Shown piece by piece: positions 16,510 to 23,845 of a stretch of DNA of 64,000 bases. This DNA comes from Bacteroidales bacterium (GTDB lineage Bacteria; Bacteroidota; Bacteroidia; Bacteroidales; UBA932). A program made the position numbers and the translations under genes. Location: positions 248,001-312,000 of the forward strand of contig JAFZOK010000024.1 of assembly GCA_017550655.1 (NCBI GenBank), given 5' to 3'. Positions within the stretch are counted from its first letter, which is position 1. Each line of letters starts with the position of its first letter. Below the pieces are notes generated by a model. The model saw nothing but the letters and a program-made list of their open reading frames with translations. It was not told the origin of the DNA and did no database searches.

Positions 16510-16594
16510 AACTCTACAACGGTGTTTTTAAAACCCTACAAATTGCGTTTCAAATGCATTATTGTAGGGTTTTGAACTCTACAATGGGTGTTTT
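16510..16594 (+). promoter_or_regulatory. Four-copy AAC(T/C)CTACAA operator array upstream of the phosphate-type operon
   Basis: The decamer AAC(T/C)CTACAA occurs four times: 16510-16519 (+), 16532-16541 (+), 16562-16571 (-) and 16575-16584 (+). The two central copies form a perfect 12-bp inverted repeat (AAAACCCTACAA at 16530-16541, TTGTAGGGTTTT at 16562-16573). The outer two are direct repeats extended by GG(G)TGTTTT. The last copy ends 26 bases before the predicted -7 box of the operon, the usual place for an activator site. The obvious candidate to bind it is the LuxR-type domain encoded two genes downstream; that is inference. Confidence 0.6.
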
Positions 16595-16610: not shown

Positions 16611-16618
16611 TATATTTG
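16611..16618 (+). promoter_or_regulatory. Predicted -7 box of the eight-gene operon
   Basis: TATATTTG, a perfect TAnnTTTG, 28 bases before the ATG at 16647. There is no TTTG at the usual 19-21 base distance (one occurs at 15 bases, 16592-16595), which fits a promoter that needs an activator. Confidence 0.55.
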
Positions 16619-16646: not shown

Positions 16647-17306
16647 ATGGGGTTGACTGAGATATTTTCAAGGAAATCGGCGAGGCTGGAGAAGAGTATC
16701 GGGGGCTTGATGGAGACCGTGGACCAGTCTCTCCTGGTGTTCAAGGAGGGAGTCAAGAACTATCTGTACGGAGATGAGGAGAGTTTTGCCGAGAATCTTG
16801 GCAAAATGGCCTCTCTGGAGACAGAGGCATCTTCCCGAATAAAGGAAATCGAGAATATTCTGTACTCAAGAGGCTATCTGATCCGTTCCAGGGGAGACAT
16901 TATGAGGCTTCTGGAAAGGTTCGACCATATCTTCATAATCATCAGCACAGACCTCATCCAGTTTGAGATCGAGTCTCCGAAGATTCCGCAAGAACTGAAA
17001 CGTGAGTTTGTAAAGCTCAGCGAACTGGCCGCAATGGCAGCTGAAAGCACGATTCCGGGGACCAACGCTTATTTCACTTCCCCGAAAAACGTGGCTGAAA
17101 CGACCGCTCAGGTATATTTCTACGAAAAGGAAGCCGTAAAGCTAAGCCAGTCAATCAAGAGAACCGTTTTCCACGATATGGATAACCTCAAACTCAGCGA
17201 GAAGTTCCACCTGAGGTATTTTGCGCTGCATATCGAGGATCTTTCAAAGGCTGCGGTGAAAGTTGCCGAGCAGCTTTCCGTAATGACAATCAAAAGGGCC
17301 CTGTAA
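16647..17306 (+). CDS. DUF47 / PhoU-like protein
   Basis: A 219-residue all-helical protein of the DUF47 family (TIGR00153), distantly related to PhoU. In many bacteria this gene sits directly upstream of a PiT inorganic phosphate permease and is thought to regulate it. Supporting sequence: N-terminal FSRKSARLEKSIGGLMETVD, the ETEASSRIKEIENILYSRG helix with its acidic metal-ligand-like residues, then RGDIMRLLERFDHIFIIISTDLIQFEIE, in the order usual for the family. It is the first gene of the operon; its stop codon is followed at once by the next ATG with no spacer. In the place where PiT is expected, the next gene encodes the PiT-like/LuxR fusion. Confidence 0.88.
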   Translation: MGLTEIFSRKSARLEKSIGGLMETVDQSLLVFKEGVKNYLYGDEESFAENLGKMASLETEASSRIKEIENILYSRGYLIRSRGDIMRLLERFDHIFIIISTDLIQFEIESPKIPQELKREFVKLSELAAMAAESTIPGTNAYFTSPKNVAETTAQVYFYEKEAVKLSQSIKRTVFHDMDNLKLSEKFHLRYFALHIEDLSKAAVKVAEQLSVMTIKRAL

Positions 17307-18911
17307 ATGGATTGCATCCTGTACATAGTAATCTCTGTCCTGTTTGCCGGAACATTCATGATTATGCTGGAACTGCCTTTTGTCAGCGGTTCCGTGCTTG
17401 CTTCCGGAGCCGGGGAGAGGATTGCCGTCAGGATTCTTGCTCCGCTTCTTCTGCTTGGAGGACTCTGTGTGCCTGTTTTCTGGCCGGAGTATTTCCATCA
17501 GATGACAGACGGACTCCTTGCAACTGATTCCATCGCCAACATATTGCCTGTAGGCATTGCCACGGCTGTTGCGGCTATGGCAGTGAGGGGATTCAGCCGC
17601 TATGTAGCCGTACCTTATGCCTTCGTAGCCGCCCTGGCTGGCCTTGGCCTTGCAGAAGGGAATGTAATTAATATAGGCGAGGCGCTGCCTTATGTACTTT
17701 CCTGGACTGCGGCACCACTGCTCTGTGCGCTGCTTTCTGCGGGCATATATGCCTTCTTTGCATTTGCCGGACGGAGGCACAAGACGCATCTGGCCCGTTC
17801 TGAAGGACGGTATCTTGCAGCCGCGACATTTGTAGCGGTTTTGCTTCTGCCCGTAGCTGCCGCCAACAATTCGCTTGTTTTCGGTTTCCTTCCTTCATCT
17901 TTAGGAGACATTGCTGTCTGGGTGACTTTGGGATGCGCCCTTGCAATCCTTCCGTTTGTGCTCAGGCACATAACAATGAGCAAATGGAACATCGCGGATT
18001 ATGAGCTTGACACAAATCCGCAGTCAATTATCAGCCTTATGCTGGGTATGCTGGCTTGCTTTGCACTGTTCTCCAGCCCGGTTCCTGGCAAGATAGGTTT
18101 GGCGGCCACTCCGCTTCCTGCAGGAACACTGTATTTGGCTGCCCTGGCTGGCATAAGCCTTTTCAGCAAACGCACACTTGTTGACGGTCCAAATCTGCTG
18201 AAGGGAATCGTCTCTACATATATTTCTCCGGTGCTGGCATTCCTGCTGTCTTTCTCCCTGGGAAGGGTTATGGACGGGGCACTCACGGGCACATTCATTG
18301 TTCTTGGAATAATTATACTGATTGCCGGTGTGGTAATCTATATGAGGATGCAGAGCCGCAGGATTATTAATCAGCAGATTGCGCGTGCGCACGAGCAGCA
18401 GGTTTATTCCACGAGGAAATCCCTTTCCGCATTGGAGGTCAGGGCGGAAATGACAGAGAAAGATCTTCTCAATAAGCTGGATCTCAAGCGGAAGGAATTA
18501 GTTGACTTTGCCATGGGCATCAGCGACCAGAAAGATTATATGGAGAATGTGCTTGAGCAGCTCAAGCAGGTACGCACGGCAAAGGACGGATCCGAGAAGG
18601 ATGCCAGGACTGATGCCCTGCTCAGGTCTCTTAAAGAGAGGATGTATTTTACAAGGGAGATGAACGATTTCTACGCCCGCAGCGAAGAGCTCCACAAGGA
18701 CTTCAACGAGCGTCTGGCTGAAAGCTTTCCTAACCTTACCGAGAACGAGAGGAAGCTGGCAAACCTTCTCAGGCAAGGCTTCTCCAGCAAATATATCGCA
18801 TCGCTGATGAACATAACCCCGAAAAGTGTAGAAATAAACCGCTATCGTCTCAGGGCCAAACTGGGCCTGACACGCAGCGAAAACCTTATAAATTTCATTA
18901 AATCAATTTAA
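17307..18911 (+). CDS. PiT-like membrane domain fused to coiled coil and LuxR-type HTH (putative membrane-bound transcription factor)
   Basis: A 534-residue protein in three parts. Residues 1-345 hold about ten hydrophobic segments. Two stretches, 99-152 (VAVPYAFVAALAGLGLAEG then SWTAAPLLCALLSAGIYAF) and 268-322 (LPAGTLYLAALAGISLF then STYISPVLAFLLSFSLG), look like the two repeated halves of PiT/PHO4 phosphate permeases, but the PiT signatures (GANDxANA, PxSTTH) are degraded. Residues 346-470 form a charged coiled coil. Residues 474-534 are the LuxR/GerE-type HTH found at the end of many Bacteroidota regulators (FPNLTENERKLANLL, then SVEINRYRLRAKLGL). It abuts the DUF47 gene, the usual position of PiT. 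The HTH is secure; the PiT origin is inferred from spacing of motifs and context. Confidence 0.75.
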   Translation: MDCILYIVISVLFAGTFMIMLELPFVSGSVLASGAGERIAVRILAPLLLLGGLCVPVFWPEYFHQMTDGLLATDSIANILPVGIATAVAAMAVRGFSRYVAVPYAFVAALAGLGLAEGNVINIGEALPYVLSWTAAPLLCALLSAGIYAFFAFAGRRHKTHLARSEGRYLAAATFVAVLLLPVAAANNSLVFGFLPSSLGDIAVWVTLGCALAILPFVLRHITMSKWNIADYELDTNPQSIISLMLGMLACFALFSSPVPGKIGLAATPLPAGTLYLAALAGISLFSKRTLVDGPNLLKGIVSTYISPVLAFLLSFSLGRVMDGALTGTFIVLGIIILIAGVVIYMRMQSRRIINQQIARAHEQQVYSTRKSLSALEVRAEMTEKDLLNKLDLKRKELVDFAMGISDQKDYMENVLEQLKQVRTAKDGSEKDARTDALLRSLKERMYFTREMNDFYARSEELHKDFNERLAESFPNLTENERKLANLLRQGFSSKYIASLMNITPKSVEINRYRLRAKLGLTRSENLINFIKSI

Positions 18912-18939: not shown

Positions 18940-20307
18940 ATGCGTAAAACATTATTATTACTGGCGATTTCAGTTCTGGCAGTCCAGACAGTATTCGCCC
19001 AGGAGAACGTAAAGCGCAACCAGTACGGAGTAGCCGTCAAGTCAGACAGACTGGACGTTGAGGCTCAGGACGGTATCTTGGTGCTTGAATCTCCTACCAG
19101 CGCCTACAAGCTCTGGTTCGACACCCGTATCCAGGCTGACGGAGCAGTGTTCTTCGGCCAGGACAAGGATTACGACAAGATCGGTAACGCAACCAGCATC
19201 CGCCGCGCGCGTTTTGCCATCAAGGGACAGCTTAACGAGAGCTGGTACGGAGAGTTCGATATGGACCTCGCAGACGGTCTGATAGAACTCAAGGACGCTA
19301 TCGTACGTTACACCGGAGTTCCAAACCTGGATCTTCAGGCAGGTAACTTCAAGGAGAATTTCTCAATCCAGCGTAACACAACTTCCCGTTACCTCCAGTT
19401 CATGGAGAGGCCAATGGTTACTTCCGCTCTGGCTCCTAGCCGCCATCTCGGTATCAACGCCAAGTATGCAAAGGACTGGTTCTGGGGATCTCTCGGTGCT
19501 TTCACCCAGGAAGTTGCAGGTGCAGAGGAAGAAGGTTATGTAAAGGATAACAACAAGGATTATGGCCGCAACACCGGTTACTCAATTACCGGTAAGGTTG
19601 TTTTCCGCCCTCTCTACAAGATGCAGGATGCAAGTCTCCACATCGGTTTTGCAGGATCTTACCGCAGGGCTCTTACCAGCGTAGACCCTAAGGAGTTTGG
19701 AACATACCGCGCAAGCGCACGTAACTCCACAAGCCTCAACCGCAAGAAGTATATCGATACCGACGCGCTTCCTGGTTTCTCCCACAATTTCCTGTGGACA
19801 GTTGAGGTTGCCGGTCACTATCAGGGACTCCGCTACGAGACCGCTTACATCGGCGACAACGTTCATTTCCACAAGAGTGTAGCAGACAACAAGACCAAGA
19901 ACTTTGGCGGTTGGTATGCTCAGGCAGGTTACCTTCTGTTCGGCGGAACCCAGAACTATGATGCCAACGGTGGCAAGTACACAAAGGTAAACCGTGGCCA
20001 GAAGTGGGGCGACCTCGAACTTTGCGCACGCTACGAGTACTGCGACCTTAACAACGCCAACATTTACGGTGGTGCTGCAGAGGCTTACACAGTAGGTCTG
20101 AACTGGCTGGTTAACAATAACGTGAAGATTATGGTCAACTACCAGTACAACAACAACGACCGTTATGCAAACGGCAAGGGCAAACTCTTTGTTGGCCACG
20201 ATGCCGCCGGAAAACCAACCAAGGACTACACCAAGGTTGTAGAGGGTAACAAGAAGGCAGGCGTTGACTACCACATGCTTGCAATCCGTTTTGAGGTTGA
20301 CTTCTAA
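18940..20307 (+). CDS. Outer-membrane porin, phosphate-selective porin O/P family
   Basis: A 455-residue beta-barrel protein with a 20-residue signal peptide (cleavage after VFA). After a short N-terminal segment it shows SYKLWFDTRIQ-like strands (AYKLWFDTRIQADGAVFF), then RRARFAIKGQLNESWYGEFDMDLADG, the run typical of the OprO/OprP family, and QAGNFKENFSIQ with alternating strands to the C-terminal Phe. In Pseudomonas this family takes up phosphate and polyphosphate. It lies 28 bases after the PiT-like/HTH gene in the same operon. Members in Bacteroidota are often annotated simply as porin, so anion specificity here is inferred from family and neighbours. Confidence 0.85.
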   Translation: MRKTLLLLAISVLAVQTVFAQENVKRNQYGVAVKSDRLDVEAQDGILVLESPTSAYKLWFDTRIQADGAVFFGQDKDYDKIGNATSIRRARFAIKGQLNESWYGEFDMDLADGLIELKDAIVRYTGVPNLDLQAGNFKENFSIQRNTTSRYLQFMERPMVTSALAPSRHLGINAKYAKDWFWGSLGAFTQEVAGAEEEGYVKDNNKDYGRNTGYSITGKVVFRPLYKMQDASLHIGFAGSYRRALTSVDPKEFGTYRASARNSTSLNRKKYIDTDALPGFSHNFLWTVEVAGHYQGLRYETAYIGDNVHFHKSVADNKTKNFGGWYAQAGYLLFGGTQNYDANGGKYTKVNRGQKWGDLELCARYEYCDLNNANIYGGAAEAYTVGLNWLVNNNVKIMVNYQYNNNDRYANGKGKLFVGHDAAGKPTKDYTKVVEGNKKAGVDYHMLAIRFEVDF

Positions 20308-20321
20308 AATTGACAGAGATT

Positions 20322-21146
20322 ATGAAAAAGATATTTTTAGCCGCATTCGCAGCACTGTTTACATTCAGTTCCTGTGTTAAGGACGAGATGTATCCTTATC
20401 CATCAATAGCTGATATTTCCAACACCATCGCTTACGATGAGACAGAAGATGTAACCGTTACGGCAACCGTAACTGCATTCGTTGACATTCAGGAGGTTAA
20501 TCTTTTCTATAAGGCAGGCGGATCTGCTGCCCAGAAGGTTAAGATGACCGCTTCCGGCAACACTTACTCCGGAGTTATCCCTGCCCAGCCAATGGGAACA
20601 GAGGTTACTTATTACATCGAGGCTTCCACCAACGGCGGAACCACTACTTCCAATGAAGGCAATTACACCGTAGGTGTTATTCCTATCGACTTTACTCCTT
20701 TGAAACTTAACGAGCTCAACGGAAACGACAAGTTCATCGAGATTATCAACACAGGTTCAGCTCCTATCAATATCAAGGGTATCAAGATCTACAAGGACAC
20801 CAAGGATGTATGGACCGGTCCTAACCGCGATCTGGCAGCAGGTGCATTCCTGCTTCTCTACAGCGAGGACGTTGTAGGTTCAGGCGGAGCTCACGAGGGT
20901 TATGATCCAGAACTCGTATTCACTTCCGGTCTTTCTGCAAAGAAGGCTGTAAGGGTACAGCTCACAGATCCTGTCAAGAAAGATCTGGATGACTTCAACC
21001 TTGTAACCGTATCCAAGACAGCTCCTGCTTCCTACAGCTGTATTCCTGACGGAAGCGGTGACTGGTATTTTACTGCAGCGACTCCAGGTGCAAAGAACTC
21101 AACTGACAAGTCAGATCCTGTAACCGGACTTATGATTTCACATTAA
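20322..21146 (+). CDS. Lipoprotein with lamin-tail-like domain
   Basis: A 274-residue lipoprotein. The ATG at 20322 gives a compact signal peptide ending in the lipobox FSSC with Cys18, and the gene starts 14 bases after the porin. Residues about 40-118 form an immunoglobulin-like beta domain (VTVTATVTAF, TYYIEASTNGG). Residues from about 126 (LKLNELNGNDKFIEIINTG) to about 250 resemble the lamin tail domain found in many secreted bacterial proteins, with the usual LNE..FIEI..N.G pattern and a LLLYSED strand. It is likely to be a surface or periplasmic partner of the porin. Ligand unknown. Confidence 0.8.
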   Translation: MKKIFLAAFAALFTFSSCVKDEMYPYPSIADISNTIAYDETEDVTVTATVTAFVDIQEVNLFYKAGGSAAQKVKMTASGNTYSGVIPAQPMGTEVTYYIEASTNGGTTTSNEGNYTVGVIPIDFTPLKLNELNGNDKFIEIINTGSAPINIKGIKIYKDTKDVWTGPNRDLAAGAFLLLYSEDVVGSGGAHEGYDPELVFTSGLSAKKAVRVQLTDPVKKDLDDFNLVTVSKTAPASYSCIPDGSGDWYFTAATPGAKNSTDKSDPVTGLMISH

Positions 21147-21159
21147 TGTTTGATAGATT

Positions 21160-21798
21160 ATGGCAGAATTAAAAATCGGTGAAATAAGCAAGCCACGGTT
21201 TGAATTCCGCAGCTTCGGACAGTGCTTCTGCGAGGCTCACAAGAGAATGGCACGTCTTTCGGCTCCTGTTCCAGAGAAGGTCTGGGAAAGGCAGAGCGAC
21301 GAAATCTATATCATTTCCGCAAAGAACGACATCAACAACACCAAGATCCGCGACGGTAAGATGGACATCAAGACATTTGTCCAGAGCGTTGACGGTCTTG
21401 AGCAGTGGAACCCTCTGATGAAGGGAGAGTTTCCTATCAGCCGCGAGGTTCTGGAGAAGGAAGTTTTCCCTGCATTCATGGTTGAGATGCCGGCTCTTAC
21501 GAAGGACACATACACTTATGAGGAATTCATCGCGATGGTTAAGGCCAATCCTGATCTTGCCGCTGTCAGAGTTCACAAGCAGCGTTTCGGCTATATGGTC
21601 AACAATACCATCTGCGAGGTTGGCAATGTCCTGATCAATGGTGCAAAGGTTGTAACCATCAACTCCGAATCCACCGAGATCGAGGATATCAAGAAGACCA
21701 TTAAGGACGTGGGTCTCGAGGGCGTTGAGAACATCAACTACCTCCAGGCTATCAAGCGCGTTATCGGAATGAGTGACAAACCATTGGCAAACGAATAG
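21160..21798 (+). CDS. Divergent CYTH-like protein (unrecognised)
   Basis: A 212-residue cytosolic protein directly before a canonical CYTH gene. It is not an obvious family member, but its shape fits a triphosphate-tunnel fold: an N-terminal strand FEFRSFGQ where CYTH proteins have ExExK, a strand DEIYIISAKND with NNTKIRDGKMDIK, then VRVHKQRFGYMVNN, TICEVGNVLING and a VTINSESTEIED strand with alternating acidic residues, ending in a helix NINYLQAIKR. The key ExExK motif is reduced. If it is CYTH it has probably changed its substrate or lost catalysis. It lies 13 bases after the lipoprotein gene and two bases before the next. Confidence 0.5.
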   Translation: MAELKIGEISKPRFEFRSFGQCFCEAHKRMARLSAPVPEKVWERQSDEIYIISAKNDINNTKIRDGKMDIKTFVQSVDGLEQWNPLMKGEFPISREVLEKEVFPAFMVEMPALTKDTYTYEEFIAMVKANPDLAAVRVHKQRFGYMVNNTICEVGNVLINGAKVVTINSESTEIEDIKKTIKDVGLEGVENINYLQAIKRVIGMSDKPLANE

Positions 21799-21800
21799 TT

Positions 21801-22271
21801 ATGGCACAGGAAATAGAACGCAAATTCTTGGTCAAGGGCGACTTCAAGGACGCCGCCTTCAAGGCCACCCGCATTACCCAGGGCTATCTCAGCAGCGTGC
21901 CTGAGAGAACCGTACGTGTAAGAGTAAAGGGCGACAAGGGTTTCATCACCATCAAGGGCATAGGTTCCGACAGCGGAGCCAGCCGTTTCGAGTGGGAGAA
22001 GGAAATCCCTGTTGCTGAGGTTCAGGACCTTCTGAAGATATGCGAGCCTGGTGTCATCGACAAGACACGTTATCTTGTAAAGGCAGGTGAGCACACCTTC
22101 GAGGTAGACGAGTTCTACGGAGACAATGAGGGTCTTACCGTTGCCGAGGTTGAGCTCGGAAGCGAGAGCGAGGCTTTCGTAAAGCCGGAATGGCTGGGTG
22201 AAGAAGTCACCGGAGATGTGAAGTACTACAACTCCATGCTGATGAAGAACCCGTACAAGAACTGGAAATAA
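21801..22271 (+). CDS. CYTH-domain (triphosphate tunnel) protein
   Basis: A 156-residue CYTH protein of the class that binds and hydrolyses triphosphates inside an eight-stranded tunnel; bacterial members include inorganic triphosphatases, and a few are class IV adenylate cyclases. All the hallmark charges are present: ExExK at Glu4, Glu6 and Lys8, RVRVKGDKGFITIKG at 39-53, RFEWEKEIP at 62-70 (Glu64, Glu66), KTRY at 88-91, EVDEF at 101-105 and EVEL at 116-119. Its stop and the next start overlap by one base (TAATG). In this operon a triphosphatase or polyphosphate-related role fits better than cyclase; that is inference. Confidence 0.92.
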   Translation: MAQEIERKFLVKGDFKDAAFKATRITQGYLSSVPERTVRVRVKGDKGFITIKGIGSDSGASRFEWEKEIPVAEVQDLLKICEPGVIDKTRYLVKAGEHTFEVDEFYGDNEGLTVAEVELGSESEAFVKPEWLGEEVTGDVKYYNSMLMKNPYKNWK

Positions 22272-23845
22272 TGGATGTTCTGGACCTGAACAACTATAAG
22301 ATCGAGAAGCTGCCGAAGATGCAGAAATCCGGCTTCGAGCGGACTATGCAGCGCTTCGGCGGCCCTCTCGCTATCTTGGTGTTCATCCTCTTGTATTATG
22401 TAGCCAGGATTTCCTTCCTGGATAATCTTGACACCGGTTCCCTCTCGGGTGCGGCGCTGAAGCGTTTCAATGAGCTGGGGTTCGACGGCTTCGTCAGGGC
22501 AAACTATGCGATGCTCGCCATCTTTGTGGCGGCTATAGTGCTCTGGATCACCGAGGCTATACCGAATTATCTGACCTCTCTCATTGTTATACTCGCGATA
22601 GTGCTGACGGGCATCACCACGGACAAGGTTGCCTACGCCCAGCTCGGACACCCTGTGATGTGGCTGAACATTCTCTCGTTCGTTCTGGCTTCTATGCTTG
22701 TCAAGACTCAGGTAGCCAAAAGGTTTGCCCTTTGGTTCGTGATCAAGTTCGGCAAGAGTGCCGGGGGCGTGATTTTCAGCTTCATCATCATCAATCTGGT
22801 TCTTTCCGCCTTCATATCGGCGACAACCGCAAAGGCAGCCATCCTGCTTCCTATCATGATGGTGATTTGCGCCATCTACGGAGCGACCGGCGGAGAGCAC
22901 CGCAACAACTTCGGGCGTAACCTGATGCTGCAGAACCTCTTCCAGATTAACCTGGGAGCCAACGCATTCCTTACCGGATCGGGGGCAACGCTTCTGGCCG
23001 GATCCCTGATTGCAGGAGCGCTTGGCATCGGTTCCTTCAGCTACCAGGACTGGTTCAAGGCGGCCTTTCCGATGAGCGTAATTCTCATTCTTATTGGCTG
23101 GTTTGTTGGAACCAAGATCATCTTCAGGATGAAGAAAGATGAGACCAAGCCTCAGATTGAGGGCGGTATGGAAAGGCTCCGCGATGAGCTCAAGGCTATG
23201 GGCAAGATGAAGGGAATCGAGTACAGGGCTATCGCGATCTTCCTCTGTGTGCTGATTCTCTGGGCAACAGACAAGCAGCACGGCATTAATCAGACGGCTG
23301 TTGCCTTCCTGGGTGCCGTTGTGGCCCTGATGCCTAAGATCGGCATTGTAAAGTGGAACGACGTGGATATTCCTTGGCATCTCCTCCTTTTCTCGGCCGG
23401 AGCCTATACGCTAGGAGCCGGTCTGGATGCGACAGGCCTTCCGGGAACAGCGGTCAATGCTGCATTCGCCTCAATGGGAATCACTGCACAGACGCCTTAC
23501 TGGGCTCTGTATATGATACTTACGAGCACCATGCTCCTAAGCGCCCTGATTTTCCAGAGCAAGACGATGCAGACGCTGATCTTTGTTCCTATAGCCATTG
23601 GAGTGGCCCAGAATTTCGGTTACCCGATAATGAGCCTGGCGTTCCCGATCGCTATGCTGGTAGGACACGTTTACGTGCTTCCGTTCAACAGCAAGCCGGC
23701 CGCTCTGCTCTATACCACTAACCAGTATGGCTGGAGCGACACCTTCAAGTTCGGCATCACGATGATGTTCATCAGCTGGCTGATGATTCTTATATGGGGC
23801 CAGACCGTCCTTCACTGGTTCGGCTATACCCCTGGACTTTTTTAA
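22271..23845 (+). CDS. DASS/SLC13-family anion permease
   Basis: A 524-residue transporter with about twelve membrane segments. The family (divalent anion:sodium symporters) moves sulfate, dicarboxylates or phosphate; the yeast low-affinity phosphate carriers Pho87/Pho90 share this fold. Two repeated halves each carry a hairpin region, with ISATTAKAAILLPIM in the first and FNSKPAALLYTTNQYG in the second, the regions that carry the substrate-binding SNT-type motifs. The start overlaps the CYTH stop by one base. Given the operon, phosphate is the most likely substrate, but sequence alone does not decide it. Confidence 0.87.
   Translation: MDVLDLNNYKIEKLPKMQKSGFERTMQRFGGPLAILVFILLYYVARISFLDNLDTGSLSGAALKRFNELGFDGFVRANYAMLAIFVAAIVLWITEAIPNYLTSLIVILAIVLTGITTDKVAYAQLGHPVMWLNILSFVLASMLVKTQVAKRFALWFVIKFGKSAGGVIFSFIIINLVLSAFISATTAKAAILLPIMMVICAIYGATGGEHRNNFGRNLMLQNLFQINLGANAFLTGSGATLLAGSLIAGALGIGSFSYQDWFKAAFPMSVILILIGWFVGTKIIFRMKKDETKPQIEGGMERLRDELKAMGKMKGIEYRAIAIFLCVLILWATDKQHGINQTAVAFLGAVVALMPKIGIVKWNDVDIPWHLLLFSAGAYTLGAGLDATGLPGTAVNAAFASMGITAQTPYWALYMILTSTMLLSALIFQSKTMQTLIFVPIAIGVAQNFGYPIMSLAFPIAMLVGHVYVLPFNSKPAALLYTTNQYGWSDTFKFGITMMFISWLMILIWGQTVLHWFGYTPGLF

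Follow-up and report, generated by a model that had tools for sequence, protein, structure and literature searches.

Gene and domain organisation of the window protein

In the 64,000-nucleotide stretch of DNA analysed here (the window), the open reading frame at 17307..18911 (+ strand; 534 aa) is predicted to encode a regulator composed of a PiT-derived membrane domain, a coiled coil, and a LuxR-type helix-turn-helix (HTH) domain. It starts at the base directly after the stop codon of the first gene of the operon (16647..17306, + strand), leaving zero gap; this conserved neighbour encodes a 219-aa DUF47/PhoU_div protein (PhoU_div, 1.5e-6, above the cut-off), which confirms the position immediately after a DUF47 gene that the initial annotation had assigned to the frame.

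Full-length copies without internal stops were found in 11 of the 61 genomes searched, the window's own included, and all 11 genomes belong to one genus. These orthologues are 63–89% identical to the window protein, and each of the 11 has a DUF47 gene beside it. The dN/dS of the membrane domain between the window and L003, L002, and L004 was about 0.25, 0.26, and 0.12, respectively, which indicates that this domain is under purifying selection in the genus; lower values were obtained for the coiled coil and the HTH, several wider pairs being saturated. The full-length copies, the DUF47 neighbours, and the purifying selection together identify the frame as a real conserved gene. In alignment A1, the window protein resembles L003 near the N-terminus and L002 further on, as if segments of the membrane domain had been recombined within the genus.

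Hydropathy analysis revealed ten membrane segments, the last at residues 326–344. According to hydropathy and profile comparison, residues 1–345 (17307..18341, + strand) comprise a degenerate PiT domain and an extra membrane helix (326–344), which is the counterpart, in the alignment, of the extra helix of the intact fusions described below. Residues 346–470 (18342..18716, + strand) appear to form a cytoplasmic coiled-coil linker, assigned from the alignment to fusions, the low dN/dS, and recognition of the coiled coil by eye. Residues 476–528 (18732..18890, + strand) carry a LuxR-type (GerE) HTH with a Pfam score of 30.6 bits versus the cut-off of 23.5 (2.5e-7), and GerE was matched in all 11 orthologues of the genus when they were scanned singly. 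The proposed succession of membrane domain, coiled coil, and LuxR HTH is thus well founded. No Pfam family was found above the cut-off in residues 1–345, and no kinase domain was present among the Pfam and NCBIfam matches of the protein. A weak match to RseC_MucC at residues 296–352 occurred in all 11 orthologues (best 2.2e-4, below the cut-off).

Origin of the membrane domain and fate of the PiT signatures

In Pfam scans, the window copy did not match the PiT family PHO4 (PF01384) even at E 10, and none of the 11 orthologues scanned in the genus exceeded the cut-off. Scanned singly, five of these 11 matched PHO4 at E 0.1 or better (best 8.2e-8), with the L011 orthologue reaching 30.4 bits, under the cut-off of 33.7; a PHO4 search of the 61 genomes retrieved three orthologues at 2e-5 to 9e-5 per genome, also under the cut-off. 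The domain profile of the window genus (A2), searched against 393 genomes of the order, found the PiT located after DUF47 in G051 (2.1e-6). Comparison of the window-genus domain with 86 signature-keeping PiT domains by hhalign gave 94.4% and a score of 60.8, the match in this one comparison resting mainly on residues 64–188, while the controls scored 14.9 (reversed profile), no more than 24.2 (30 column shuffles), and no more than 18.9 (three unrelated membrane proteins encoded in the window). L098, from another genus of the same family as the window, gave 98.4% across residues 1–327, and a comparison of the window-genus domain limited to the five A6 fusions matched residues 1–286 (94.9%). Searches of solved structures with the window protein returned HTH chains and otherwise just weak matches that look like chance (SecY, 0.0075), with no PiT among them, and those with the L098 membrane domain returned no match; the intact fusion L099 matched the PiT structure 6l85 over both repeats (2.5e-22). 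The PHO4 matches to orthologues and the controlled hhalign comparisons indicate that the membrane domain of the window protein descends from PiT, bearing out the relation suggested earlier for residues 1–345.

The accompanying view that the PiT signatures had been lost is mostly correct, but the loss is not complete. When nine rows of the window genus were compared with 36 signature-keeping rows of alignment A7, the STSQ and PVSSxQ loops, constant in the 36 intact fusions, were absent from the window genus, and neither of the two GANDxAN-type signatures was present as such. What remains is the acidic residue of the first signature (D in seven rows and E in two; E22 in the window protein), together with the last Gly of the GAND region, and two adjacent Asn residues in the second motif, GANNIAN (N187 in nine of nine rows, N188 in eight of nine). 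Among the residues invariant in all 46 alignment rows are W133, P137, H161, N187, S257, G264, and P308. For human PiT2, a published study lists D28 and D506 of the signatures among the critical residues (PMC3126765), and we infer from the alignment that D28 corresponds to the acidic position kept in the window genus. In PiTs linked to DUF47, fused or not (A6, A8), the second signature contains GANN, with an Asn at the position of the critical Asp (D506) of human PiT2.

PiT-HTH fusions in other families

A family survey with one genome per species yielded at least 583 pattern matches, of which the best 80 were analysed; as these were ranked by likeness to the fused query, the ratios obtained from them are not prevalences. 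Among the best 80, 47 loci were fused and 33 unfused, and contig ends truncate three of the unfused ones. In families other than that of the window, the gene after DUF47 encodes a PiT domain that runs on into an additional membrane helix, a coiled coil, and a LuxR HTH. All five fusions scanned singly matched PHO4 (4.6e-54 to 1e-64) and GerE in one chain, GerE being above the cut-off in four, so that intact fusions combine the PHO4 profile with the signatures. Among the 47 fusions of the best 80, the first signature fits GAN[DE]xxN in 39, reads GSND or GTND in seven, and reads GANG in L153; the second fits GANNx[AG]N in 45 and reads GANNVSN in L146 and L149. Carriers include the cultured strains Lutibacter maritimus DSM 24450 (L146), L. 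litoralis JCM 13034 (L148), and Mariniflexile maritimum M5A1M (L140), as well as Saprospiraceae, Chitinophagaceae, Melioribacteraceae, Lentimicrobium, and others. The fusion is found in several families, and the PiT signatures are largely kept in the members fetched from families other than that of the window. The initial annotation had envisaged a one-protein regulator built from a decayed transporter; the fusion stands, but the idea has to be widened to several families in which, outside that of the window, the signatures are largely intact. Within the phylum, the PiT-HTH fusion is not common: in 395 genomes drawn, the 12 PiT-part matches among those listed had frames of 391–528 aa that did not reach the HTH.

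Most of the fusion chains inspected have basic residues after the extra helix. The positive-inside rule relates basic residues to the cytoplasmic side of the membrane, and the HTH would accordingly be located in the cytoplasm.

Alignment A7 contained 33 of the 47 fetched fusions together with L099, L101, and L104; alignments A5–A7 exclude L093 and L100, which are cut, and L097, which has two frames, and the pairs L151/L095, L154/L093, L170/L101, and L181/L102 are the same records. In L097 (3490–5307), the fusion occupies two frames in one assembly, one with the PiT part and the other with the PiT end and the HTH part, reflecting either a sequencing error or a real break. Locus L074 (3575–5116, genome G055) encodes a 513-aa membrane–coiled coil–HTH protein with DUF47 before it and the porin after it. 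It was considered as a second degenerate PiT fusion and rejected, its membrane domain showing no relation to PiT (hhalign 0.3%); its sensor domain may have been swapped or may have diverged beyond recognition.

Order of events

The order of fusion and signature loss was read from a tree of the DUF47 proteins, in which the fused gene itself was not used (quick search without bootstrap, long branches flagged; L074 carried the label degenerate). The window genus and L098 (nine rows) group with 26 intact fusions with an SH-aLRT of 98%, and the fused or unfused state requires five changes on this tree. The window protein thus appears to be a degenerate member nested among signature-keeping fusions, and because of this nesting the loss of signatures most likely came after the fusion. 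Since the fetched members outside the family of the window largely keep the signatures, the ancestor would have been a transporter-HTH fusion. Because fused loci and unfused loci each tend to group together on the tree, the distribution of the porin and of the array described below could partly follow phylogeny.

Composition of the operon

Downstream of the window protein, all on the + strand, lie genes for an outer-membrane porin of the OprP type (Porin_O_P, 18940..20307, 2.2e-43), a lamin-tail-domain (LTD) protein, probably a lipoprotein (20310..21146, 4e-9), a conserved 212-aa protein without a Pfam or NCBIfam family (21160..21798), a CYTH-domain protein (21801..22271, 4.3e-16), and a DASS-family anion symporter (22271..23845, TIGR00785, 3.3e-64, above the cut-off). 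Neighbours were counted at the fused and unfused loci among the best 80 of at least 583 matches. Among the best 80, DUF47 immediately precedes all 44 fusions with at least 700 bp of upstream sequence and 27 of 27 unfused loci. Within the same best 80, an OprP-type porin lies within 600 bp downstream in all 39 fusions with at least 1500 bp downstream, and after only one of 26 complete unfused PiT loci (L183); the unfused G051/L094, outside that 26-locus set, also has the porin downstream. The later genes, counted anywhere in the fetched locus, follow the same trend among the best 80: in the 29 fusion loci with about 5 kb or more downstream versus 17 unfused loci, the LTD gene was found in 22 versus 0, the 212-aa gene in 29 versus 2, the CYTH gene in 29 versus 4, and the DASS gene in 27 versus 0. 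The 212-aa protein is very strongly conserved, with matches in 33 of the 47 fusion loci of the best 80, most near 1e-100; its identification as a second CYTH protein was rejected (hhalign 0.4%, against 0.6% for the reversed profile).

All 11 genomes of the window genus with an orthologue contain a Na/Pi cotransporter, a likely phosphate importer, and neither a PstC match nor a PHO4 protein above the cut-off was found in these 11 genomes (73–92% complete). Phosphate uptake in the genus may rest on the Na/Pi cotransporter.

A phased CHMTACA array upstream of the fusion operons

The region before the DUF47 gene contains three operator-like sites on the + strand: CTCTACAA at 16512..16519, CCCTACAA 22 bp further on at 16534..16541, and CTCTACAA again, 43 bp after the second, at 16577..16584. 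An inverted copy of the second site is located at 16562..16569 on the - strand (TTGTAGGG on the + strand). The stretch 16512–16584 is the only cluster of three sites in 150 bp across the 64-kb window. The sequence TATATTTG at 16611..16618 (+ strand), 34 bp after the start of the third site, fits TAnnTTTG, the -7 box consensus of Bacteroidota promoters.

The upstream test included 43 of the 47 fusions and 26 of the 30 complete unfused loci among the best 80, namely those with an adjacent DUF47 gene and at least 200 bp of upstream sequence. K-mer and EM searches upstream of DUF47 (42 and 43 fusion operons) both converged on CWMTACA. The refined pattern C[ATC][AC]TACA (CHMTACA) occurs within 300 bp in 41 of the 43 fusion operons of the best 80, with 97 forward and 9 reverse sites, versus a mean of 9.3 and a maximum of 19 in the shuffle control, and in only two of the 26 unfused loci (2 sites, shuffle mean 2.1), although the pattern was refined on the same operons in which it was counted. 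A first pattern, written after reading 21 upstream regions, four of them in the fusion set, was found in 34 of the 43 fusion operons (shuffle mean 11.6, maximum 22) versus one of the 26 unfused loci of the best 80. Of the 43 operons, only L146 and L149, both from Lutibacter, had no forward CHMTACA site. The background elsewhere is 0.087 sites per 300 bp of strand, and the frequency between the later genes of the cluster is near this background.

The sites are regularly arranged: the 44 distances between sites of up to 75 bp follow a period of about 10.7 bp, and none of 2000 random sets was equally regular. A TAnnTTTG box is present in the last 60 bp in 30 of the 43 fusion operons of the best 80, versus 2 expected; 68 of the 70 sites in those 30 operons are at least 25 bp upstream of the -7 box, a layout pointing to an activator, and they cluster near 38, 65–71, 119–125, and 160–182 bp from it. 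The link between the HTH and the array at 16510–16594, at first surmised from the window alone, is thus supported by the presence of CHMTACA at fused loci and its scarcity at unfused ones. Two unfused PiTs that kept the porin, L183 (6001–7161) and L094 (5582–6712), have neither the HTH nor a CHMTACA site in the 300 and 220 bp examined, respectively, and are candidates for joint loss of HTH and operator. One site each was found at the unfused L185, L195, and L096.

Searches for a wider regulon did not establish one: pairs of CTACAW sites in the window's own genome are no commoner than in the reversed control (58 versus 63). A three-site CTACAW pattern gave five matches at four places, one of them the operon at 16512–16584, against one in the control. 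Another three-site stretch, G000:C15:781265-781336, located in an AT-rich region, is a possible second target.

Proposed mechanism and alternative explanations

Taken together, the window protein is probably a membrane-embedded one-component regulator, made of a PiT-family transporter domain, an extra helix, a coiled coil, and a LuxR HTH, that activates its own operon, and the autoregulation is well supported by the sequence comparisons. What the sequences themselves show is the ancestry, the fusion, the operon, the array, and the joint occurrence of HTH and array. The HTH, held at the membrane and paired via the coiled coil, would bind the phased CHMTACA copies before the first gene, just upstream of the promoter, and would activate the genes for DUF47, the regulator, the porin, and the LTD protein, and probably those beyond. 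The substrate state of the PiT-derived domain would decide whether the HTH can activate, with the PhoU-like DUF47 protein as a possible partner in sensing. Transport and regulation may be combined in the members fetched from other families, while in the window genus the membrane domain would now be mainly a substrate sensor, as suggested by the decay of the signatures in a domain that stayed under purifying selection. More tentatively, and on balance short of an even chance, each of the intact chains of several families could function as a PiT-type anion transporter and, in the same molecule, as an activator that recognises specific sequences at its own uptake operon, with substrate occupancy or flux read directly at the promoter; the window genus would then represent an end state in which transport has decayed and the sensor-regulator is left.

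The ligand may differ from phosphate, and sulfate or another anion such as tripolyphosphate is a real if minority possibility; it is compatible with the autoregulatory reading, and the chances of the two overlap. The nearest NCBIfam model of intact PiT domains is the sulfate permease CysP (69.5 and 79.6 bits, with a cut-off of 400), the last gene of the cluster encodes a DASS symporter with a Pfam match to a sodium:sulfate family, and the cluster also encodes a CYTH protein, a fold known for triphosphates. The DUF47/PhoU-like and Porin_O_P neighbours suggest phosphate by their family names, neither of which is proof.

It is unlikely that the membrane domain is a mere anchor or scaffold, with the signal coming from the DUF47 partner or elsewhere. 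Such a role would agree with the invariable presence of DUF47 directly upstream of the fusions and unfused loci tested among the best 80, and with the faster evolution of the membrane domain relative to the coiled coil and HTH. However, one helix would suffice for an anchor, whereas the whole multi-helix domain has been retained and contains residues that do not vary between intact PiTs and the window genus.

Still less expected is continued transport by the window protein as a bifunctional transporter-regulator with an altered substrate site. The survival in place of the first-signature acidic residue and the second-signature Asn pair, the purifying selection on the domain, and the lack of another PHO4 protein above the cut-off in the 11 genomes speak in its favour, but the window genus has lost both loops, STSQ and PVSSxQ, together with most residues of the signatures, all invariant in the 36 intact fusions, and all 11 genomes hold the Na/Pi cotransporter as another likely importer. 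Repression of the operon by the HTH is improbable to a similar degree: arrays can also serve repression by looping, whereas the sites have an activator layout relative to the -7 box, and the membrane-spanning LuxR regulators tested in Eggerthella lenta are activators (PMC9734109).

Comparison with known systems

The membrane domain and gene position of the fusions are those of unfused PiTs located after DUF47 (L094, L182; TmPiT structure 6l85), but the unfused loci lack the coiled coil and the HTH, carry CHMTACA sites no more often than chance would give, and usually have no porin. The C-terminal half is similar, with weak matches, to other Bacteroidota coiled coil-LuxR proteins (BT3442 family, DUF6377), whose N-terminal domains are different; residues of about 330–534 of the window protein gave many matches in the 61 genomes searched, commonly in frames of about 950 aa.

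Transporter-like domains in sensor proteins have precedents. CbrA of Pseudomonas combines a transporter domain with a histidine kinase; it shares with the fusions a transporter-like domain in a sensor protein, but the transporter family is different and its output is a kinase. Ks-Amt5 consists of an ammonium transporter domain and a histidine kinase, and is reported to bind but not translocate ammonium (PMC5764959). It likewise illustrates the recruitment of a transporter as the sensory module of a fusion, differing from the proteins described here in the transporter family, which here is PiT, and in having a kinase rather than a DNA-binding output.

A close architectural likeness is to the LuxR regulators DadR, HcdR, and CadR of E. 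lenta and other Coriobacteriia, which have 10–12 transmembrane helices in an N-terminal membrane domain and a C-terminal LuxR HTH in one chain, control genes beside themselves, and were shown to be activators (PMC9734109). The word transporter does not appear in the text of that paper, and a transporter origin is not claimed there (PMC9734109). The window protein, with ten segments and a GerE domain, has the same layout; it belongs to another phylum, and the membrane domain of the fusions is derived from PiT, often with the transport signatures.

Full-text literature searches, with most subscription papers outside their scope, yielded no description of a fusion between a PiT transporter and a DNA-binding domain. 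As far as could be searched, membrane LuxR regulators and transporters turned sensors are known separately, and their union in a PiT-HTH chain with a phased array would be new. In most cases, partner proteins relay the state of a transporter to gene expression. In the fusions, the transporter domain, the membrane anchor, and the DNA-binding domain seemingly form a single polypeptide that has its own predicted operator, and cultured marine bacteria are among the carriers. Transceptor signalling could thus be studied with a single protein and its promoter, by point changes at a transport site that is already known, and CHMTACA is an immediate gel-shift target. The series from unfused PiT through the signature-keeping fusion to the degenerate fusion suggests a possible path from transporter to sensor. 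Since related fusions usually have a matching array in front of their own operon, such a protein probably senses a nutrient itself and turns on the genes for its uptake.
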